Shown piece by piece: positions 30,001-64,000 of a stretch of 64,000 nucleotides of DNA (its first letter is position 1; every line of letters begins with the position of its first letter). The DNA comes from Plumapathes pennacea. Lineage: Eukaryota; Cnidaria; Anthozoa; Antipatharia; Myriopathidae. The position numbers were made by a program, and so were the translations under genes. The stretch lies in the NCBI GenBank assembly GCA_964036295.1, contig OZ038466.1:18719097-18783096 (forward strand), in the 5' to 3' direction. A model generated the notes under the pieces. That model was not told the origin of the DNA and did not search any database. It saw nothing but the letters and a program-made list of their open reading frames with translations.

Positions 30001-33000
30001 GGAGAACACTTACTCGGGCCCGTTTGAAACGTCGCTCCTCCCATGTGCCGAACCTAATTCAAATAAGCAAAACCCACTGTTTGAGCTAATTTACATTGAG
30101 TTCAGCGCATGAGAAGAGCGACGTTTGAAACAAGTCTCAAATGTTCAATGCCCGCCCCCGGGGTTCAGTGAGCCAATAAATAAAATTCTCCGGTGTGCCG
30201 CCTGGTCCTGAAAACCCTTACCCTATTTCAGACCAAAATACCTGATTTTTTATACCCTATTTCAGACCTGACTCCAAAAATGTATACCCTACTTCAGACC
30301 TTTTTTAGAGATTTTTTTTTCTTTTGCAAAGATTTCCGCCCTGTGTTTTCTTCCATTTTCCGTGCAATGTCCGCGGCGAAACATTTCTGTTAAAATCATC
30401 CCTATTTCAGACCAAAAAGGCAAAATCGATACCCTATTTCAGACTAAGATGCTTGAAAACGATACCCTTTGGGGCGGTACATACCTATATGGCTTATATA
30501 TGGGAGTACCCCCCCCCCCCGGGGGGGGGGGGGAATTCTATAAGCGAGTCAGAAGATGGTGTGACACGTAACTACGACAGATCAGTTAAAGTCGACACGA
30601 GAAAGCTAAACCTTTCGTCGTCCAGCTTTACTGGATTTATCATACATCTCCTGCACTCCAACGCAGACTAACACAAGTTACAACTACGATTATTCTAAAG
30701 ATGGTGTAGTTTGATTGACGTATAGTTTAGTATTGGGTGATCGTGTGTATATTCTACATGCCAAGCAAGAACGAGTCCGCCCATCGTCAGAGCTCTTGAA
30801 AGGCCTATAATCTTATTTGTTTTTATTTACAGACGAGCACACAAAGAGTCACGGACGATTTCTGAAAGTGCAGCGGTTCCCTCCCTATCCAACGAACCGG
30901 ATTTATTGCTGTTCCCTGAGTCAGTGCCCCAGACCAGAAGTGAGTGCTGGAATGCGTTTTTTTGTTTTGCTTTGTTTTGTTTTGTTTTGTTTTGTTTTGT
31001 TTTGTTTTGTTTTGTTTTGTTTTGTTTTGTTTTGTTTTGTTTTGTTTTGTTTTGTTTTGTTTGTTTTTTGTTTTTTGTTTGTTTGTTTGTTTTTTAAGCT
31101 TGGTTCTTACGAGCGATGCAAGCACAATTAGCCCATTTGCACAGTGAAACCAGGCTTTATGCAAGCGCAAGTACAATGATTACTTTTTGTATTCATTGCG
31201 CTTGTGCTTGCGTCTCCCGCTTTCACTGACACTTGAATCTTGTCCTTGCGCTTAACACTGGGTCTCACCAGCGACACAAGCTTAAGAGTTCTAATTGCAC
31301 AGTGAAACCAGCAGGCTCTATGCAAGTGCAAGTACAATGATCAAAAGTTTCCATTCCCTTGTGCTTGAGCTTGTGCTTGCGTCGCCCATTTTCACTGACG
31401 CATGCATCTTGTCCTTCCGCTTACCTTGGTTTTCACGAGGGACACAAGCACAGGAGTTCTTATTGCACAGTGAAACCAAGCTCTATGCAAGCACAAGTAC
31501 AATGATCAAAATTTCTATTCCCTTGCTCTTGCGCTTGCGCTTGCGTTGCCCGTTTTCACTGATGCATACATCGTGTCCTTGCCCCTAAGCTTGGTTTTCA
31601 TGAGTGACGCAAGAACAAGAGTGCAAACTGTACAGTGAAAACAGGTTCTATGCAAGCACAAGTACAAGGATCAAAACTTTCCATTCCCATACTCCTGCGC
31701 TTCTGCTTGCGTCGGCCATTTTCACTGGCACATGCATCTTGTCCTTGCGCTTAGCTTGGTGTTCTCACCAGCGACACAAGCACAAGAATGCTAATTGTAC
31801 AGTGAAACCGGGCTCGACGCAACCGCAAGTAAAAGGATCAATTTTTTCCATTCCATTCCATTGCGCTTGTGTTTGCGTTTTCTGTTTTCACTGACGCATA
31901 TATATCTTGTCCTTGTGCTTGAACTTAGGCGCCGTTGCCGTCACTGACTGCTTATCTTTCCCTGTTTTCTTTTCTCTTCTCTGTCTTTATGTTCGTCTCT
32001 TTCTCTCGGTCTGTCCCTTTTCCCTATGACTTATTTCTTGATTGATCGTTTCCTCTTTGTTGTTGTTGTTGTTTTTTTATTTCTGCCTTTATTTCGTCAA
32101 CTCAGAGTGACCCGGGGCCTGGTAGCTATTCTCCGCAAGACCTCACCAAACCGGAACCTGCGCACAGGCCGCCGTTTGGCTCGTCCGCTGAACGAATGGA
32201 CAGACATGCTCGCAGATTTTTCCTCGGAAGCTACGTAAGTCTAGTGAAAGATGCTTTTAGTTAAAATTCCCCGCTTGTAGTCCAGGAAAAGAAAGAGGCT
32301 GGGTCGAGAGGAGGAGCGGAGGTTATTGTTGTTGTTTGTTTGTTTGTTTGTTTGTTTGTTTGTTTGTTTATTTTTTGTTGTTGTTGTTTCGGTATAGCTT
32401 GATAGCATAAAACCGCCTTTCTCATAGAATCCTGTTGGTCCCGGGCGCTACGATATAGACCGTTATGAAAAGGCCAAACATGTGAATGGGAATGGAAGTT
32501 CGTTCAACTCCAAAACCAAGCGATACGATCTTATACGAGACAAGTACCTAACGTAAGTATTCAGATGTTAATCCCGTATCGTGAGCATTAGTTACTGGTG
32601 TTGCTGCTGCTCCAGTGCTGCTGCTGTTGTTTTGTTGCGACCTTGTGATCATAAGACGAGAGATCTGTGGCACGACGCAGCGGAGTGCTTCTCCACACTT
32701 CTCGAGAAAACGGTAACTTTGCAAAAGATAACAAGAAATAAAATCGAGTTTTACACGAGCTGACGTCAAATTAAAACGTGCGTGCTATGTAGAGTTAGGG
32801 TGCACGTGGATTTGTCAGCCGCACGTGCTATCTACCTTATCAACCTTATATAACGATCTTATGCGAGAGAAATACCGCACTTAGGCCCTGTTTACATGAG
32901 GGGAGGTTGACCCTCCTAGGGACAGCCTTCTAGAAAGTCAAAAGATAGCCCCCCTTTACGTGTCAAGCGTTATCCCTGGGAGAGTAACCCTACCTCAAGC

Positions 33001-41189: not shown

Positions 41190-41605
41190 TTTGGTCGCCG
41201 CGGACTTCCTTCTTCGCTTCACGAATGTGCACTTCACAGCAGCCAGAAAGAGAAGATGTCTTCGCGCGGACTTTGTTCTTCGCTTGACTAATGTGTAATT
41301 CACAGTAGCTGGAACAGAAGATGCCTTCGCCGCGGATTGCCGTCTTCGCTTGACGAATGTACACTTCACAGCAGTCAGGAACAGAAGATACCTTCGCCGC
41401 GGACTTCGTTCTTCGCTTGACGAATGTGTACTTCACAGTAGCAGAAACAGAAGATGCCTTCGCCGCGGATTGCCTTCTTCGCTTGACGAACGTGTACTTC
41501 ACAATAGCAGGAACAGAAGATGCCTTCGCAGCGGATTGCCTTCTTCGCTTGACGAATGTGCACTTCGCAGCAGTCAGGAACACAAGATGTCTTCACTGAA
41601 AAGGA
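41190..41605. repeat. six 65-66-bp tandem units (22-codon periodicity)
   Basis: CTTCGCTTGACGAATGTGCA recurs at about 41214, 41279, 41345, 41411, 41477 and 41543; one more unit is at about 42540. The period is a multiple of three, so several frames are open on both strands. On the minus strand one frame repeats a basic VKRRRQSAAKASSV motif. I cannot tell whether it is translated. Confidence 0.75.
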
Positions 41606-44455: not shown

Positions 44456-44675
44456 ATGAAGATACAGAATATGTATAGATGCATTGCCAGAAATCGTGGA
44501 CAAGATGGCGAACGCGCGTGCGCAATGCAAGCGTAATGGCGTCGATACAGCATAAGAAAATGTATGAGAATGTTCAAATTTCGCAAATATATCATTATAC
44601 ATATTAGATTTCCACGGTGCCAGCATCTAAACTTGATGAGGGTCGTTCTAACAACATAAATAACACAAAAGCAGG

Positions 44676-46112
44676 GGGTGTATCGAAAACGAAGACCCCG
44701 AAAACGAAGACCTAAGACCCAGAAAACGAAGACCCCAAAATAAGTTAACATAAATTTGCGGGGTCTTCGTTTTATGGGTCTTCGTTTTCGATACACGGTG
44801 GTGGGTGTATCGAAAACGAAGACCCCGAAAACGAAGACCCCAACAGTAATAGCCAACAGCTTCACTAAGTGGCACTCTATTTCATACTGCTTGTTCAAGC
44901 TTTACGACGAGTGGCAAAAATTGCGGGGTCTTCGTTTTATGGGTCTTCGTTTTCGATACACCGGTGGTGGGTGTATCGAAAACGAAGACCCCAAAAACGA
45001 AGACCCCAAAGGGAATCGTCCACTTTCCTGTATTTTGCGCGTGGTTTCTCTTGAAGTGATCTGTCTACGGTGTTTTGTAGAGCTTATCGTGCTGTCAGCT
45101 TTTCTGCCATGTTGTTTACTTGTGGCGTAGCACCGCTGACCGGCTCAAGTGCACGTGGTCGTGACACACATGGCATCTGCTTTGCCGTTCTTCGCGGAAG
45201 GCCGCGCAAGAACAAAACACGCGCCAGACATTGTAGATTTACCCAAGTTCACATGGAAAGAGATTTCGGAAGTGGCGGAGATTGGAAGAGGAAAGTAACT
45301 TTCCTGTCATTTTAGTCTTCTTGTTACTGTTGTTCGATATGTGCATCATTCGTTCCTATTAAGATTCTAAGCAATCAGTACATTTTCACTGTGTCCCTAA
45401 AAAGAGCTCTATTGTTACAACATTTCATAGAAGTAACTTTCCTGGCATCTGTATTCTTGTTACTGTTGTTCGATATATCCATCGTTCCTTCCTGCTGAGG
45501 ATCTCCTGAAGAGATTATTTGCAGTCTGTTTAATATCAAACTTGAAATAAACCGACTCAACGTTTTTAATTTACGTTGACTTTCATGTGAACTTGGTTAA
45601 ATTTGCATTGTCTGGCGCGTGTTGCTTGTGCGCGCGAAAGGTGAGCCGGTCAGCGGTGCTACGCCACAAGTAAACAACATGGCAGAAAAGCTGACAGCAC
45701 GATAAGCTCTACAAAACACCGTAGACAGATCACTTCAAGAGAAACCACGCGCAAAATACAGGAAAGTGGACGATTCCCTTTGGGGTCTTCGTTTTTGGGG
45801 TCTTCGTTTTCGATACACCACCACCGGTGTATCGAAAACGAAGACCCATAAAACGAAGACCCCGCAATTTTTGCCACTCGTCGTAAAGCTTGAACAAGCA
45901 GTATGAAATAGAGTGCCACTTAGTGAAGCTGTTGGCTATTACTGTTGGGGTCTTCGTTTTCGGGGTCTTCGTTTTCGATACACCCACCACCGTGTATCGA
46001 AAACGAAGACCCATAAAACGAAGACCCCGCAAATTTATGTTAATTTATTTTGGGGTCTTCGTTTTCTGGGTCTTAGGTCTTCGTTTTCGGGGTCTTCGTT
46101 TTCGATACACCC
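44676..46112. mobile_element. 1.4-kb foldback (Mutator-like) element with nested palindromes
   Basis: The two arms, 44676-45147 and 45642-46112, are near-identical inverted repeats of about 470 bp. The outer end is GGGTGTATCGAAAACGAAGA. A perfect 10-bp direct repeat, CAAAAGCAGG, flanks it (44666-44675 and 46113-46122; 8 bp if the fourth G is counted as element). Long inverted repeats with 8-11 bp target duplications are typical of Mutator-like elements. Each arm also contains two internal ~85-bp palindromes made of the same terminal motif (left arm about 44758-44842 and 44924-45009). The core has no transposase and carries a diverged ~90-bp direct repeat (about 45290 and 45425), so it is non-autonomous. 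Near-identity of the arms suggests recent activity or gene conversion. Confidence 0.85.
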
Positions 46113-46137
46113 CAAAAGCAGGTACTGAAACGGAGGC

Positions 46138-58944: not shown

Positions 58945-60997
58945 CTAAAGCTTTGTGCAGCGCTCTTCCTCACACTCCTTGTAGCCGATGTTCATGTACG
59001 CCAACGAAATTTCCTCATACTCGTTGGGAATGCTTTTAGTGGAGGAACCGGATGACGAGAAAGATTGATCTTCCGGCTCTAAATAATGCGTGTCTTTATC
59101 ACCTGGGTTTTGCATCAGGTCATTGATTGTCGGGTTCTGTTCTGCTTCTGTGTTGGCTGGGGCGGGATTTCTCCGCAGCCTCACTATAAAACAGAGGGCA
59201 AGGAACAATATGAGCAGGACTAAAATGGTTCCAAGAACAGGCAAGGTAGCGGGACTACTGACAATACCTATGGTTAGAGAGGGAAAAGGTTGATCTGCTG
59301 GCTCTAAATAATACGTGTCTTTATCACCTGGGTTTTGCATCAGGTCATTGATCGCCGGGTTCTGTTCTGCTTCTGTGTTGGGTGGGGCGGGATTTCTCCG
59401 AAGCTTCACTATAAAACAGAGGGCAATGAACAATATGACCAGCAGGACTAAAATGGTTCCAAGAATAGGCAAGGTAGTGGGGCTGCTGACGATACCTACC
59501 GGTTAGAGAGGAAAAAGAAAAGATAAGAAACGATAAGTAGTAAGGCAGGACTATCGTACAACAGTTTGAACAGTCAGCCATGGACAGTGTATAACTAATT
59601 TGAGTAAATTAATACCATTTGCAAATAAACATAGATTCAATATTCCACACATGTCTGCAAAGCAAACCAATTCGATGGCAATAATTAATAGTCACTTTTC
59701 ACGACTTTTCCGTGCATGTAACTTAAGCCATGACACTTACGTCTGTACCTGAGCAGGCTTTGTACAATTATATTGTGGTACAACAATTCCAGCAGAAGAC
59801 GTTGGTGTTTACATAACCGAATACCTAGTATCTCATATTTTCTTTTGACGTATATATTTTCTTTCGCACTCTCTGTTTCTGGCATAATAATCCCGAATAA
59901 TCAACCAGAAAATGTCTTTCGGTGGAAACTCACAAAAAAATTAATTCCAACACTTCGACTATCGTAGCCATCAATCCAGTTTCCAAACAATGGTTTTGTA
60001 GGATTTCCAACGTAAGAAAGAGTTAATTACTTATTTGTCCTGATGAAAGATCTTTATTTCTTCAAAGCGAACCCCGTTACGGCTACTGTGACCAAACATG
60101 GTAAATTTAGAATTTGCCATTTGGCCATTGTAACGGTAACCGGGTGCACTTCAAATATTACGTAAATAGATAGATAATTTGGAAAGAAGATAATAGTCAT
60201 AAGATATTGGGCATTCAATTACAGTATTAACTACCAAGTTCCTCTGCTGGGACATTTTGCCACAAACAGCTTGTCGCCACACCCATTGTTGTGATTACCT
60301 TTCTTTTTTTCCTCATTTTCGGCATAAGGTTCCACAAGTTTGATAATCAAATTCTGAACGCAGAATCAGTTTGGCGAATGTCATTAATCTATATTTCTAA
60401 TAGCTTTTCCCTCTACTTCTGTTACCTTCCTCTTGGAAATTAAGTACGCATAAAATAGGGGCGGTTACAGTGACAAGCATGTTCACGACTAATAAGTCAC
60501 CTGGATCATCTTTTCTAAGTTTCTCAGATTCCTTGGTGAGCTCCTCAAGTTGAATTTGATGCACTGTGCTGCCAGCTCTGTTGGTCATGTTGCAAGCGTA
60601 CATCCCAAAGTCCTGTTCAGACTGAGGTCTGACGATTAGAAGATTGTTGTCAACTTTTATGTTGTCTGTGGTCAAAGGTTTTCCTTCTTTGCTCCAGCTG
60701 TAAGACACTTTGCGGGCGCTTGTTGCATAGCAACGTAGTACTACCGTGGTATTTAGAGCAGAGACAACGTGTGTTGAAGATTGCTCTTTTCGTAACCTCG
60801 GCGGTGCTGAAGAAATGAAAAACAAGTTGTTTGCTGATTTGTATAAACTGGACACAGATGAACAACACGTAGAGCGCGCGCGATGCAAGAAACTCTTATA
60901 AGTCCACCTGGTACGTTACATTTGTGATAGCTCGCTATGGCCAACTAATGAAAGAAAGTTGAAAATAATGATATTGATAATATTGATAATAATGATG

Positions 60998-61050
<53 letters not shown>

Positions 61051-63932
61051 TATATTTCTGTGTCAAGATTTTGTAGCAGACGAACATCCCTCTACTAATG
61101 GAGGACATTATACTAAATAAAAATAAATATAAAATATAAAATATAAGTTGTTTCTAATGTAAATATAATTTTAAAGGTTAAAAATTATTTTAAGTTTCTT
61201 AGAATTTATAAGAAAGATATAAGTTTAAGAGGAGTAAAGAAAGCAGCCGTTGTTACAACCATAATCTAAACACTTAGTAAGATCACGCTTACGAATGTAA
61301 GCTTTCAATCCCTTTAACGAAGAGTGTTGGTCTGAGATATCTAATGCCATGTTTACACGAGAGACATTTTTCGCAGTAAAAATATTACCGCGGTAAATTT
61401 GCATTTACCATGCCCTACAAGGAGGTAAATTGGCATTTATTACGGTAAATGTTCTATTGTTCTGAACTACATTTACCAATGTTTTGTAAATTGTCTGCAC
61501 GCGTGGTACGTTTACTACAGTAAAGTAAATGCTTTCACCGAGGTAATTGTGTCTCGTGTAAACACGGCATAAGAGACGGCCGAGTGTTTCCCAATATGTA
61601 ACTGTGTTACAACTGGGTATTGAAAAATCAGATTGTCTTAGACTGTATTTGGAACTTTGAGGCTTGAATACAAACAGTTAACTTTATACATAAAAATACA
61701 CATGTCTTGGAGGCTTCTATTTGGTATGTACGCTCTATCTAGTATATTGCTGGTAACTTGGTGAAGGTATTACAGGGCGCATCTATGACAGAGGGTTATC
61801 TCACCTATCACAGTGACGTTAGTAGACATGCTGGTAGAACCGTACTTGTTAGTAGCAGTGCACTTGTATACTCCACTGTGTTTGGTTTGAATTGATGCAA
61901 AGATAAGTAAAGCTCCTCCTTCATGATGATCCACTTCAGGAATGTTATTGTCTCCATCCTTACTCCACGATACTTTAGGTTCTGGAGTTCCACTGACCTT
62001 ACAGGAAAGTGGGCTAGAGCTTCCTTTTATAAAATCTATTGTGGGTCGCAGCCTCTGTATGGAAGGACGGTCTGCAAAACAGGGTTTACCGTTTGACATG
62101 AATCATTGACGTCAGATACATTAAGACCACTTTACAATATGCGCTTCAGAAATGTTATCGTCCCCACCCTTGTTCCACGATATTGTAGAATTGTAGACTT
62201 ACTTAGAACAAACGAGATCACCAGAAACAGCGACATCAGAAATCACATTTAATAACTAATTAACCATCCTATACTATAGCTACTAATAATTTTACTTCAA
62301 AGTTGTCGCACCGCTTAGTTCCCTCTGGCCGTTGTGAGCCAAGAATTTTACGGCATATGCTGTACGTTATGAAGTATCTACGTGATGATTAGCATCTGCA
62401 ATATCTCGGAACATAAAGAGCTGACTGCATATCATTCTTAAGTCGTCATGCGTACTCACTAACGTCCGGAATGCGGCCACTCTTCACGTCACTTGCTGGA
62501 CTGTCTCCTTTACTGTTGTACACCAGCACTTTCACTTCATACTCTGCCCATTCTTCTAAATCTCTCAACGTGTGTGACGTAGCTATTCCAGTAAGCGTCT
62601 TGGTGATGAAACTGCTCTTTCCTTTCCTTCTGTACAGCACCTTGTATCCAACAAGTGCTCCGTTTATTTTATCCGGCTTCTGTTGAAGCGATAGCAATCG
62701 AAAATAATTAAATACACGCATGTTTAAAAAACGGGGGGGTGGGTGGGATTTTGATGTCAAATTGTCGCCAATTTGCTTAGTCGGTACACTTTCCTCACTC
62801 GATCACTAAACCGAGGGATGACGTTTTGCCATTTTGACAACGTTGCAAACAAAGTTTGGACTTTGCACACTGTAAACTGTGTCCAAGATCTCGAAGAAAA
62901 AATAGCCGATGTGACTCGTATTTTACACGGTGTCCAACTACTTCACAATACTGATTCCACATTCTAGCACAGTATAACTGAGCTAGTAGAATTCAGACAT
63001 TTCATACCACAGTAGGAACCTTATGTGAATCCGGAGTACGTCGGCAACGTCAAGAGGCAAATGTGTCGATTTCCCTTAAATTATTTTTAATATTTATGTT
63101 CATTGTTTTTACTCAAATTGTTCCTTGGTACGTCACCGACTGGAGGTTTGTCTGTTCGCCTTCTGACACAACAAATACTAGGTGACATTTGACCCTAGAC
63201 CATGCTCGTTTGCGTGCGTTGTAAATATTTATGCGCAACCGACAAAAGCTGCAGGAACTAGCAGGTTTGTACGTACAGAAAACAAGTAAAGCTTTATATA
63301 TAGCACAGTCCAGGACCATTTATACCAACACTGATCGATTGGAATTTTATACTTCTGACACATACTTTTATAATTCTGAATTATCCGTATAGACGAGTTA
63401 ACTATCCGACCAAGGTTAATCAACAACCACTTTTTGAAAACTACAAAATCGGACCCTATCCCATTATTACGACCAGATTTGTATTGCCTGTATGAACAGG
63501 ATTCCACTGTAGTTACAAAATTAATTTCTAGCTTCATTATCTTGAACTTGCCTGCCACGTGACCTGGATAGTCGTTGACGTCACCGCTGTTACAGCCGTC
63601 AAGTTTGGTGCCATGTCTGGAACTTTTGACGAGAAAACATAAAGATTTATCTGTTCATTGTGGAATAAAATATAAAACGGTTAAAGTAGACGGCGTGACC
63701 ATGTGTACTCACCATCCTCCAGGGTGCGAACAGTCTTCACGTCACTTTCTGGACTGTCTCCTTTACTGTTGTACACCTTCACTTTCACTTCATACTCTGT
63801 CCATTTTTCTAAATCTCTCAACGTATGTGACGTGGCTTCTCCAGTAAGCGTCTTGTTAGTAAAACTACTCTGTCCTTTCTTCTTATGCAGCACCTTGTAT
63901 CCAACAAGTACTCCGTTTATTTTACCCGGTTT
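58945..63932 (-). CDS. Ig/FN3 cell-surface receptor, 3' portion (5' end outside window)
   Basis: Six exons join in frame: 63713-63932, 63552-63616, 62460-62679, 61805-62071, 60501-60806, 58945-59495. Order: C-terminal part of a fibronectin III domain (GVLVGYKVLHKKKG...WTEYEVKVKVYNSKGDSPES); a second FN3 from the 65-base plus 220-base exon pair (NLTAVTAVTSTTIQVTWQ, then GALVGYKVLYRRKG); Ig domain 1 (LSCKVSG, VSWSKDG, SGVYKCTATN); Ig domain 2 (VLRCYATS, YSWSKEG, FGMYACNMTN); then two transmembrane-plus-tail units in one exon (LPILGTILVLLVILFIALCF and LPVLGTILVLLILFLALCF), each followed by a basic stop-transfer RLRRNPAP/KLRRNPAP. The tail ends with NEYEEISLAYMNI. The two 220-base FN3 exons are the same length and phase, showing domain duplication. 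The exon at 63552 ends with a GC donor (CAG/GCAAGT). Likely an adhesion or signalling receptor; the ligand is unknown. Confidence 0.88.
60996..61049. repeat. (AAT)n microsatellite
   Basis: Eighteen near-perfect AAT units in the intron between the two Ig exons, preceded by degenerate GATAAT repeats. Confidence 0.95.
61345..61569. repeat. 225-bp MITE with TAA target duplication
   Basis: The ends TGCCATGTTTACACGAGA and TCTCGTGTAAACACGGCA are inverted with one mismatch. TAA flanks both sides (61342-61344 and 61570-61572), the 3-bp duplication of PIF/Harbinger-type elements. The interior repeats GGTAAAT/ATTTACC words. It lies in the Ig/FN3 gene. Confidence 0.75.
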
Positions 63933-64000
63933 CTGGGAATCGAAAAATGAAAAGCACCGTCGAGTGAACAGTCTATCACTTGAGGAGTTCAAACTGACTG

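Follow-up and report, generated by a model that had tools for sequence, protein, structure and literature searches.

A tandem duplication places a second in-phase candidate 3' splice site and a second hydrophobic segment in the terminal exon of a Plumapathes pennacea F5/8C-FN3-Ig receptor gene

A splice acceptor that is duplicated together with the membrane anchor behind it raises the question of which acceptor is used and how the resulting protein sits in the membrane. This question arises at the terminal exon of gene A, an F5/8C-FN3-Ig receptor gene on the minus strand of a 64,000-nt stretch of Plumapathes pennacea DNA (hereafter the window, C5:18719097-18783096, within a genome of 290 Mb in 24 contigs). 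The reading preferred here, with a probability of roughly 0.42, is that the duplication made a second acceptor, that the original one (AG1) serves as the default and the duplicated one (AG2) as the alternative, and that the products would be a two-span decoy and a single-span signalling form. One duplication hit splice site, anchor, and tail together, with a possible signalling/non-signalling choice within one receptor as the outcome; if both junctions are used, alternative splicing and a change of membrane topology would have originated jointly here, and recently.

The in-frame duplication of acceptor, anchor, and proximal tail is confirmed as real DNA. Specifically, a 228-nt unit at 59495-59268 of the minus strand recurs at 59267-~59060 inside the terminal exon, and the repeat search aligns the two copies in a 158-nt block of 93% identity at a spacing of 225 and in a 58-nt block of 91% identity at a spacing of 228 (59060-59217 and 59213-59270, respectively, in copy 2). 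The 3-nt difference between the spacings corresponds to one codon within the first hydrophobic segment, and 16 nt plus this extra codon distinguish the copies within the initial 70 codon columns, or 15 nt when the codon gap is set as a GGT deletion. On the minus strand, 185 codons can be read without interruption from 59502 to the stop at 58945. The string CTCTCTAACC..AG stands ahead of both copies, the first of which begins with GTATCGTCAG (exon start 59495) and the second with GTATTGTCAG (exon start 59267), and in the long form the copies are joined by the intron-derived linker PFPSLTIG. The features of this exon and of the intron before it are the following (a slash marks an exon-intron boundary).

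59268..59495, minus strand: copy 1, with anchor 1, membrane-proximal tail, and intron-derived linker, 76 codons (repeat search, frame)
59060..59267, minus strand: copy 2, with anchor 2 and membrane-proximal tail (repeat search, codon comparison)
59496..59497, minus strand: AG1, the original 3' splice site, phase 1
59268..59269, minus strand: AG2, the duplicated 3' splice site, phase 1
59505..59523, minus strand: pyrimidine tract of AG1
59276..59289, minus strand: pyrimidine tract of AG2, which supplies linker codons when the long form is translated
59407..59466, minus strand: hydrophobic segment 1, followed by KLRR (Kyte-Doolittle)
59182..59238, minus strand: hydrophobic segment 2, followed by RLRR (Kyte-Doolittle)
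58987..59019, minus strand: distal tyrosine motifs YEEISLAYMNI, single copy, common to several paralogues
59326..59327, minus strand: donor-like CAG/GTGATA within copy 1, in phase with AG2, which would excise 60 nt
59541..59564, minus strand: intron element predicted from folding energies to pair with the AG1 boundary

These results bear out a sequence-only reading of the locus, which had proposed an in-frame tandem duplication of about 225-228 bp, acceptors at 59495 and 59267 in the same phase, and a linker translated from the tract and AG of copy 2. It had also placed the tail within the duplication, and of the tail only the membrane-proximal part proved to be duplicated, the distal part with YEEI/YMNI being single. 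Both acceptors continue the phase 1 of the donor that closes the second Ig exon (CAG/GTGACT, 60501). They differ in length by one base, CCGGTAG at AG1 versus CCATAG at AG2 in gene A and CCGTAG in its paralogue A', so an exact duplication does not by itself account for the common phase; had the unit been copied exactly, a one-base indel after the event would have given that phase. As judged by eye, only ~18 nt of the intron were copied, the branch-point region lying outside the duplicated unit, and both unit ends sit in pyrimidine-rich sequence of the CTTT type, which suggests a microhomology-assisted tandem duplication.

The assignment of gene A to the Ig/FN3 receptors, already made in the sequence-only reading, is upheld by Pfam matches in the region to I-set (1.1e-16) and Ig_3 (2.7e-09), with fn3 and F5/8C domains as well. 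The exons placed upstream of the terminal one are the following.

60501..60806, minus strand: Ig2 exon (second Ig), donor at 60501/60500, phase 1
61805..62071, minus strand: Ig1 exon (first Ig)
62460-62679, minus strand: FN3b half 2 exon
63552-63622, minus strand: FN3b half 1 exon
63713-63932, minus strand: FN3a half 2 exon

The exons from FN3a to Ig2 are bordered by AG and GT, except for one GC donor, CAG/GCAAGT, which closes the FN3b half 1 exon (63552/63551) and has GTAAG in its upstream duplicate. The second-half FN3 exons are tandemly duplicated at 86% identity (62447-62682 and 63700-63935), and the first-half exons are duplicated alongside them (75% over 84 nt). The 185-codon frame has no relatives of solved structure at E up to 0.1, and its Pfam matches were left unused, all of them falling under the curated cut-offs (the best, PF15330 SIT, at 21.4 vs 27.6 bits). 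The ITAM consensus is YxxL/I-x6-8-YxxL/I; gene A has the Ig ectodomain of an ITAM-bearing Ig-superfamily receptor and lacks this tail motif, only YEEI/YMNI being present.

The intron before the transmembrane (TM) exon holds, at window position 60058, the sole AATAAA/ATTAAA on the minus strand within 61004-58404, and none was found in the 541 nt past the stop codon. Read-through of the 60501 donor would add a short hydrophobic tail (DLLVVNMLVTVTAPILCVLNF...), the hydrophobic part of which is open in A' too, and an intronic polyadenylation form of gene A is possible on this layout. The Ig1-Ig2 intron carries a 47-nt inverted repeat (61340-61386 and 61528-61574, 77% complementary, 141 nt apart) that may be a small mobile element. 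Elsewhere, the window contains a large inverted repeat with 473-nt arms of 99.6% identity (44675-45147 vs 45642-46113) and minisatellite arrays at 31137-31915 and 41195-41594, whose units measure 165/330 bp and 66/199 bp. On the mitochondrial contig of 17.7 kb, ARAGORN finds tRNA-Met and tRNA-Trp only, and cox1 matches in pieces with a 250-codon open frame in between, a pattern in keeping with a hexacorallian (stony coral, anemone or ally).

The duplication is also present in paralogue A' (G000:C5:18807491-18808041, 29.45 kb away), where the exon is 98% identical over all 551 nt and likewise open for 185 codons. Copy 1 is separated from copy 2 in both A and A' at 11 sites (10 with the other gap placement), every other site pattern among the four copies being represented by 1-3 sites each, and these shared copy-distinguishing sites indicate that the duplication is older than the A/A' split. 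Moreover, its recurrence in A' and the ~7% divergence of the copies make unlikely the assembly error for which the earlier reading had allowed. A second receptor gene, B, lies with gene A in one of two tandem blocks of 28-29 kb (G000:C5:18771771-18799652 and 18801039-18830130, offset by 29.2-30.5 kb), and the other block carries the counterparts A' and B'. The aligned pieces of the blocks are 96.8-98.2% identical, and the pair is either a tandem duplication or a join of two haplotypes. Considered with the duplicated FN3 exons, the blocks suggest that the region duplicates readily. In B', the TM exon begins with a one-base difference, and A' has a stop codon in the FN3a half 1 exon, so the open TM exon of A' proves little and A' was dropped as evidence of constraint.

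A genome search with copy 2 and the tail returned 16 matches at E up to 1, which is a lower bound: 4 correspond to the duplicated units of A and A' and 12 lie in other places, half of these (6/12) being weak on their own (E 0.001 to 0.7). A search with the tail of B added two more family places, 19574089 and 18439027. No second copy adjoining the first was reported at these 14 other places, 13 of which were also read, 12 of them over a stretch that starts 120 nt upstream and ends with the stop codon, and 19574089 in translation. Since no second copy was reported there, the duplication, found in A and A' only, looks derived, and the 14 places offer the presumed ancestral state for comparison. 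The TM exons of the family beyond those of A and A', at least 14, lie on one contig (G000:C5:18.4-22.2 Mb), some with ITAM-like tails, and form a receptor cluster. The tails of paralogues L008 and L009 read, by eye, YMDL-x6-YQSL, and several paralogue tails carry PN.YEE(I/V)...Y.N(I/V), the only one of the two kept in A. A retrocopy that might have revealed the junction was also sought, and the search with the exon DNA returned the window, A', and one paralogue exon, none of them retrocopy-like.

Two AGs with pyrimidine tracts, in compatible phase and downstream of one donor, constitute the arrangement of an alternative 3' splice site, and their relative strength bears on which is chosen. An acceptor matrix trained on 14 sites (8 family TM exons and 6 internal exons of A) scores AG2 at 10.9 and AG1 at 5.1, both within the range of the 14 true sites scored leave-one-out (-2.2 to 17.2); among the 94 AGs from donor to stop, AG2 ranks first and AG1 sixth. 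Conversely, yUnAy branch motifs precede AG1 at three positions (-29, -39, and -46), whereas AG2 lacks them from -8 to -60; in animals, branch points can be degenerate. The AG-exclusion zone extends over 53 nt for AG1 and 25 nt for AG2. At the RNA level, the predicted 75-nt local fold around AG1 reaches -12.6 kcal/mol (z -2.2, 8/200 shuffles as good) and that around AG2 is unremarkable (z 0.9, 166/200 shuffles as good), and folding of 656 nt leaves the two AGs largely paired (0.99-1.0 for AG1 and 0.90-0.94 for AG2). The branch motifs and the 53-nt exclusion zone of AG1, together with the full pyrimidine tract and the top matrix rank of AG2, count for the use of two acceptors; the lack of a consensus branch point at AG2, and the sixth rank and predicted hairpin of AG1, count against it. 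Tract, AG, and phase fit the earlier claim that both AGs are usable, while the splice signals, as far as sequence can tell, are split and equivocal.

The foremost rival is that AG1 alone is used and AG2 never, which would give a constitutive protein with two hydrophobic segments; this is rather unlikely. The usual splice choice is the 5'-most AG past canonical branch motifs, which counts for this rival, as do the missing yUnAy of AG2 and the first exon base after AG2, which is A in A' versus G. Nevertheless, the tract and AG of AG2 are intact in A and A' and its matrix score exceeds that of AG1, and the use of AG1 only would leave extracellular the distal YEE(I/V)...Y.N(I/V) motifs, which are intact in both genes.

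Segments 1 and 2 both have the length and hydrophobicity needed to span the membrane (19-residue Kyte-Doolittle maxima of 3.29 and 3.24), as the topology toggle proposed from the sequence would require; the charges after the segments, in contrast, tell against it. (K/R)LRR follows both segments and K/R is absent from the last 15 loop residues before segment 2, so that the flanking charges of a two-pass hairpin are not found; the same N-out/C-in orientation is favoured for each segment, which strains the two-span form and argues against a two-span topology. The two-span form would either expose the distal tyrosine motifs outside the cell or adopt a strained hairpin, and the single-span form would be an ordinary type I receptor. 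A tandem duplication of ~228 bp took in the closing ~18 nt of the final intron together with the anchor and the membrane-proximal half of the tail, and thereby made the second in-phase acceptor in the terminal exon. In the preferred two-acceptor reading, AG1, which kept the original branch motifs, would be the likely default and yield the protein with two hydrophobic segments, signal-poor or a decoy; AG2, chosen in at least some transcripts, would yield the ancestral single-pass receptor that carries the signal. A topology switch is a possible and fair hypothesis on these features.

The opposite restriction, in which AG2 alone is used, the intron is in effect longer, copy 1 survives as a relic within it, and the product is an ordinary single-pass receptor, is distinctly unlikely. 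It draws on the matrix scores and on the burial of AG1 by the strong predicted local hairpin, and also on the divergence between A and A', since copy 1 has changed at about the intron rate (4 changes in 228, or 1.75%, none silent, vs 2.22%). Copy 2 with the tail has 9 changes in 323, 4 of them silent. Overall, A and A' diverge by 2.36% in the TM exon, by 2.22% in five introns (212/998 bases of the Ig1-Ig2 intron being unaligned), and by 1.13% in six other exons; the TM exon is indistinguishable from the introns (P 0.88), the other exons differ from the introns (P 0.019), and the TM exon compares with the other exons at P 0.059. The six other exons hold 12 nonsynonymous changes and 1 synonymous, with no silent excess. 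Standing against this rival are the absence of a consensus branch point at AG2 and the pairing of AG2, too, in the 656-nt fold, and, more mildly, a copy 1 frame that is open and in phase at both ends, conservative changes in the TM segment of copy 1, and a sole coding length difference from copy 2 that is a whole codon. The open frame is expected by chance, since the probability of remaining stop-free after 4-16 random changes is 0.90-0.67. Within A, copy 1 and copy 2 differ by 9 nonsynonymous and 7 synonymous changes (pN 0.057, pS 0.141; P 0.11), or by 9 and 6 with the gap as a GGT deletion (P 0.20), and the changes that precede the A/A' split are nonsynonymous in 7/11 cases (P 0.34), or 7/10 with the other gap placement (P 0.53); these P values are against random single changes. 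The comparisons thus give no clear sign of selection on either copy.

An intron gain, in which splicing to AG1 is accompanied by removal of a 60-nt mini-intron from the donor at 59327 to AG2, or proceeds in two steps via AG1/GTATCG, is improbable. The 59327 site, internal to copy 1, is the only GT of that copy that reaches 7/9 of the donor consensus, vs 8/9 for the Ig2 donor, and it is in phase. However, animal introns are rarely as short as 60 nt, a branch point would be needed within that length, and the own donor of the AG1 junction, genomic TAG/GTATCG, is weak at 5/9, which tells against the two-step route. The geometry equals that of the potato RdRp case (PMC4974935), which speaks for such a gain.

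A more elaborate proposal, and a long shot, is that the duplication copied the acceptor arm of a predicted hairpin without its partner and so produced an RNA-controlled topology switch in which AG1 is hidden or open. For the intron element 59541-59562, the predicted pairing energy is -21.1 kcal/mol with the AG1 boundary, a value that 0.15% of 2000 shuffled sites equal; with the AG2 boundary it is -10.2 kcal/mol, which 11% equal. When the intron was scanned as 488 overlapping 22-mers for partners of the two boundaries, the six top AG1 partners were all this one element in shifted windows (best -24.0 kcal/mol, at 59543-59564), and the next other place pairing with AG1 reached -15.5 kcal/mol; with AG2, the element 59541-59564 gave -11.5 vs -12.2 kcal/mol for the best intron place. 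If such a hairpin formed, AG1 would be masked and splicing would move to AG2, giving the signalling single-pass receptor; if it opened, AG1 would be used and the two-span decoy would result, with the signalling motifs outside; the one-base acceptor change would have put both forms in frame. The pairing of both AGs in the 656-nt fold counts against a simple hairpin switch, and A' is identical to A across the intron element and the AG1 site, which leaves no covariation between them. Lastly, an assembly or haplotype artefact is hardly credible: A and A', which lie in tandem and are ~97% identical across ~28 kb, might represent two joined haplotypes, but the internal duplication would still be in both, and its copies, ~7% apart, are too divergent for a collapse error.

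In our view, the duplication is a young by-product of a region prone to exon duplication rather than a proven selected switch. A literature search returned no recognised description of this gene or of a tandem duplication of 3' splice site and TM segment in a terminal exon. Among known systems, the hairpin proposal comes nearest to the one-arm duplication model of Ivanov and Pervouchine (PMC6071210): competing RNA structures in tandem duplicated exons are proposed to arise by duplication of one arm (PMC9013439, PMC6071210), and in gene A, likewise, the arm of a predicted intron stem on the acceptor side was duplicated, the partner being single. In gene A, however, strong pairing is predicted at AG1 only, AG2 pairing no better with the element than elsewhere in the intron. 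Recursive splice sites (PMC8605326) resemble AG1/GTATCG in that an acceptor adjoins GT and a first step would give CAG/GTATCG; they differ in that the donor of gene A is weak and AG/GT occurs at the same junction in several single-copy paralogues.

In Drosophila Dscam, two alternatives of exon 17 are used mutually exclusively (PMC3364881), and gene A is similarly an Ig/FN3 receptor with two alternative transmembrane-coding segments. In contrast to mutually exclusive TM exons, which are separate and have their own acceptor and donor, copy 1 of gene A adjoins AG2 and runs into copy 2 in one frame, so that the protein would have one anchor or both, and the choice never gives copy 1 alone with the full tail. 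In potato RdRp, a tandem duplication that straddled an intron-exon boundary led to intron gain; the second copy inherited the branch site as well as the pyrimidine tract and AG, a cryptic donor was recruited, and RNA-seq shows the new intron (PMC4974935). The unit in gene A likewise crosses the boundary, reaching from the 3' end of the intron into the exon that follows, and carries the tract and AG downstream; unlike the potato unit, it lies in a terminal exon, leaves the frame open throughout, and copied no branch motif at a usable distance. Of these cases, potato RdRp is the closest by origin and Dscam exon 17 the closest by content.
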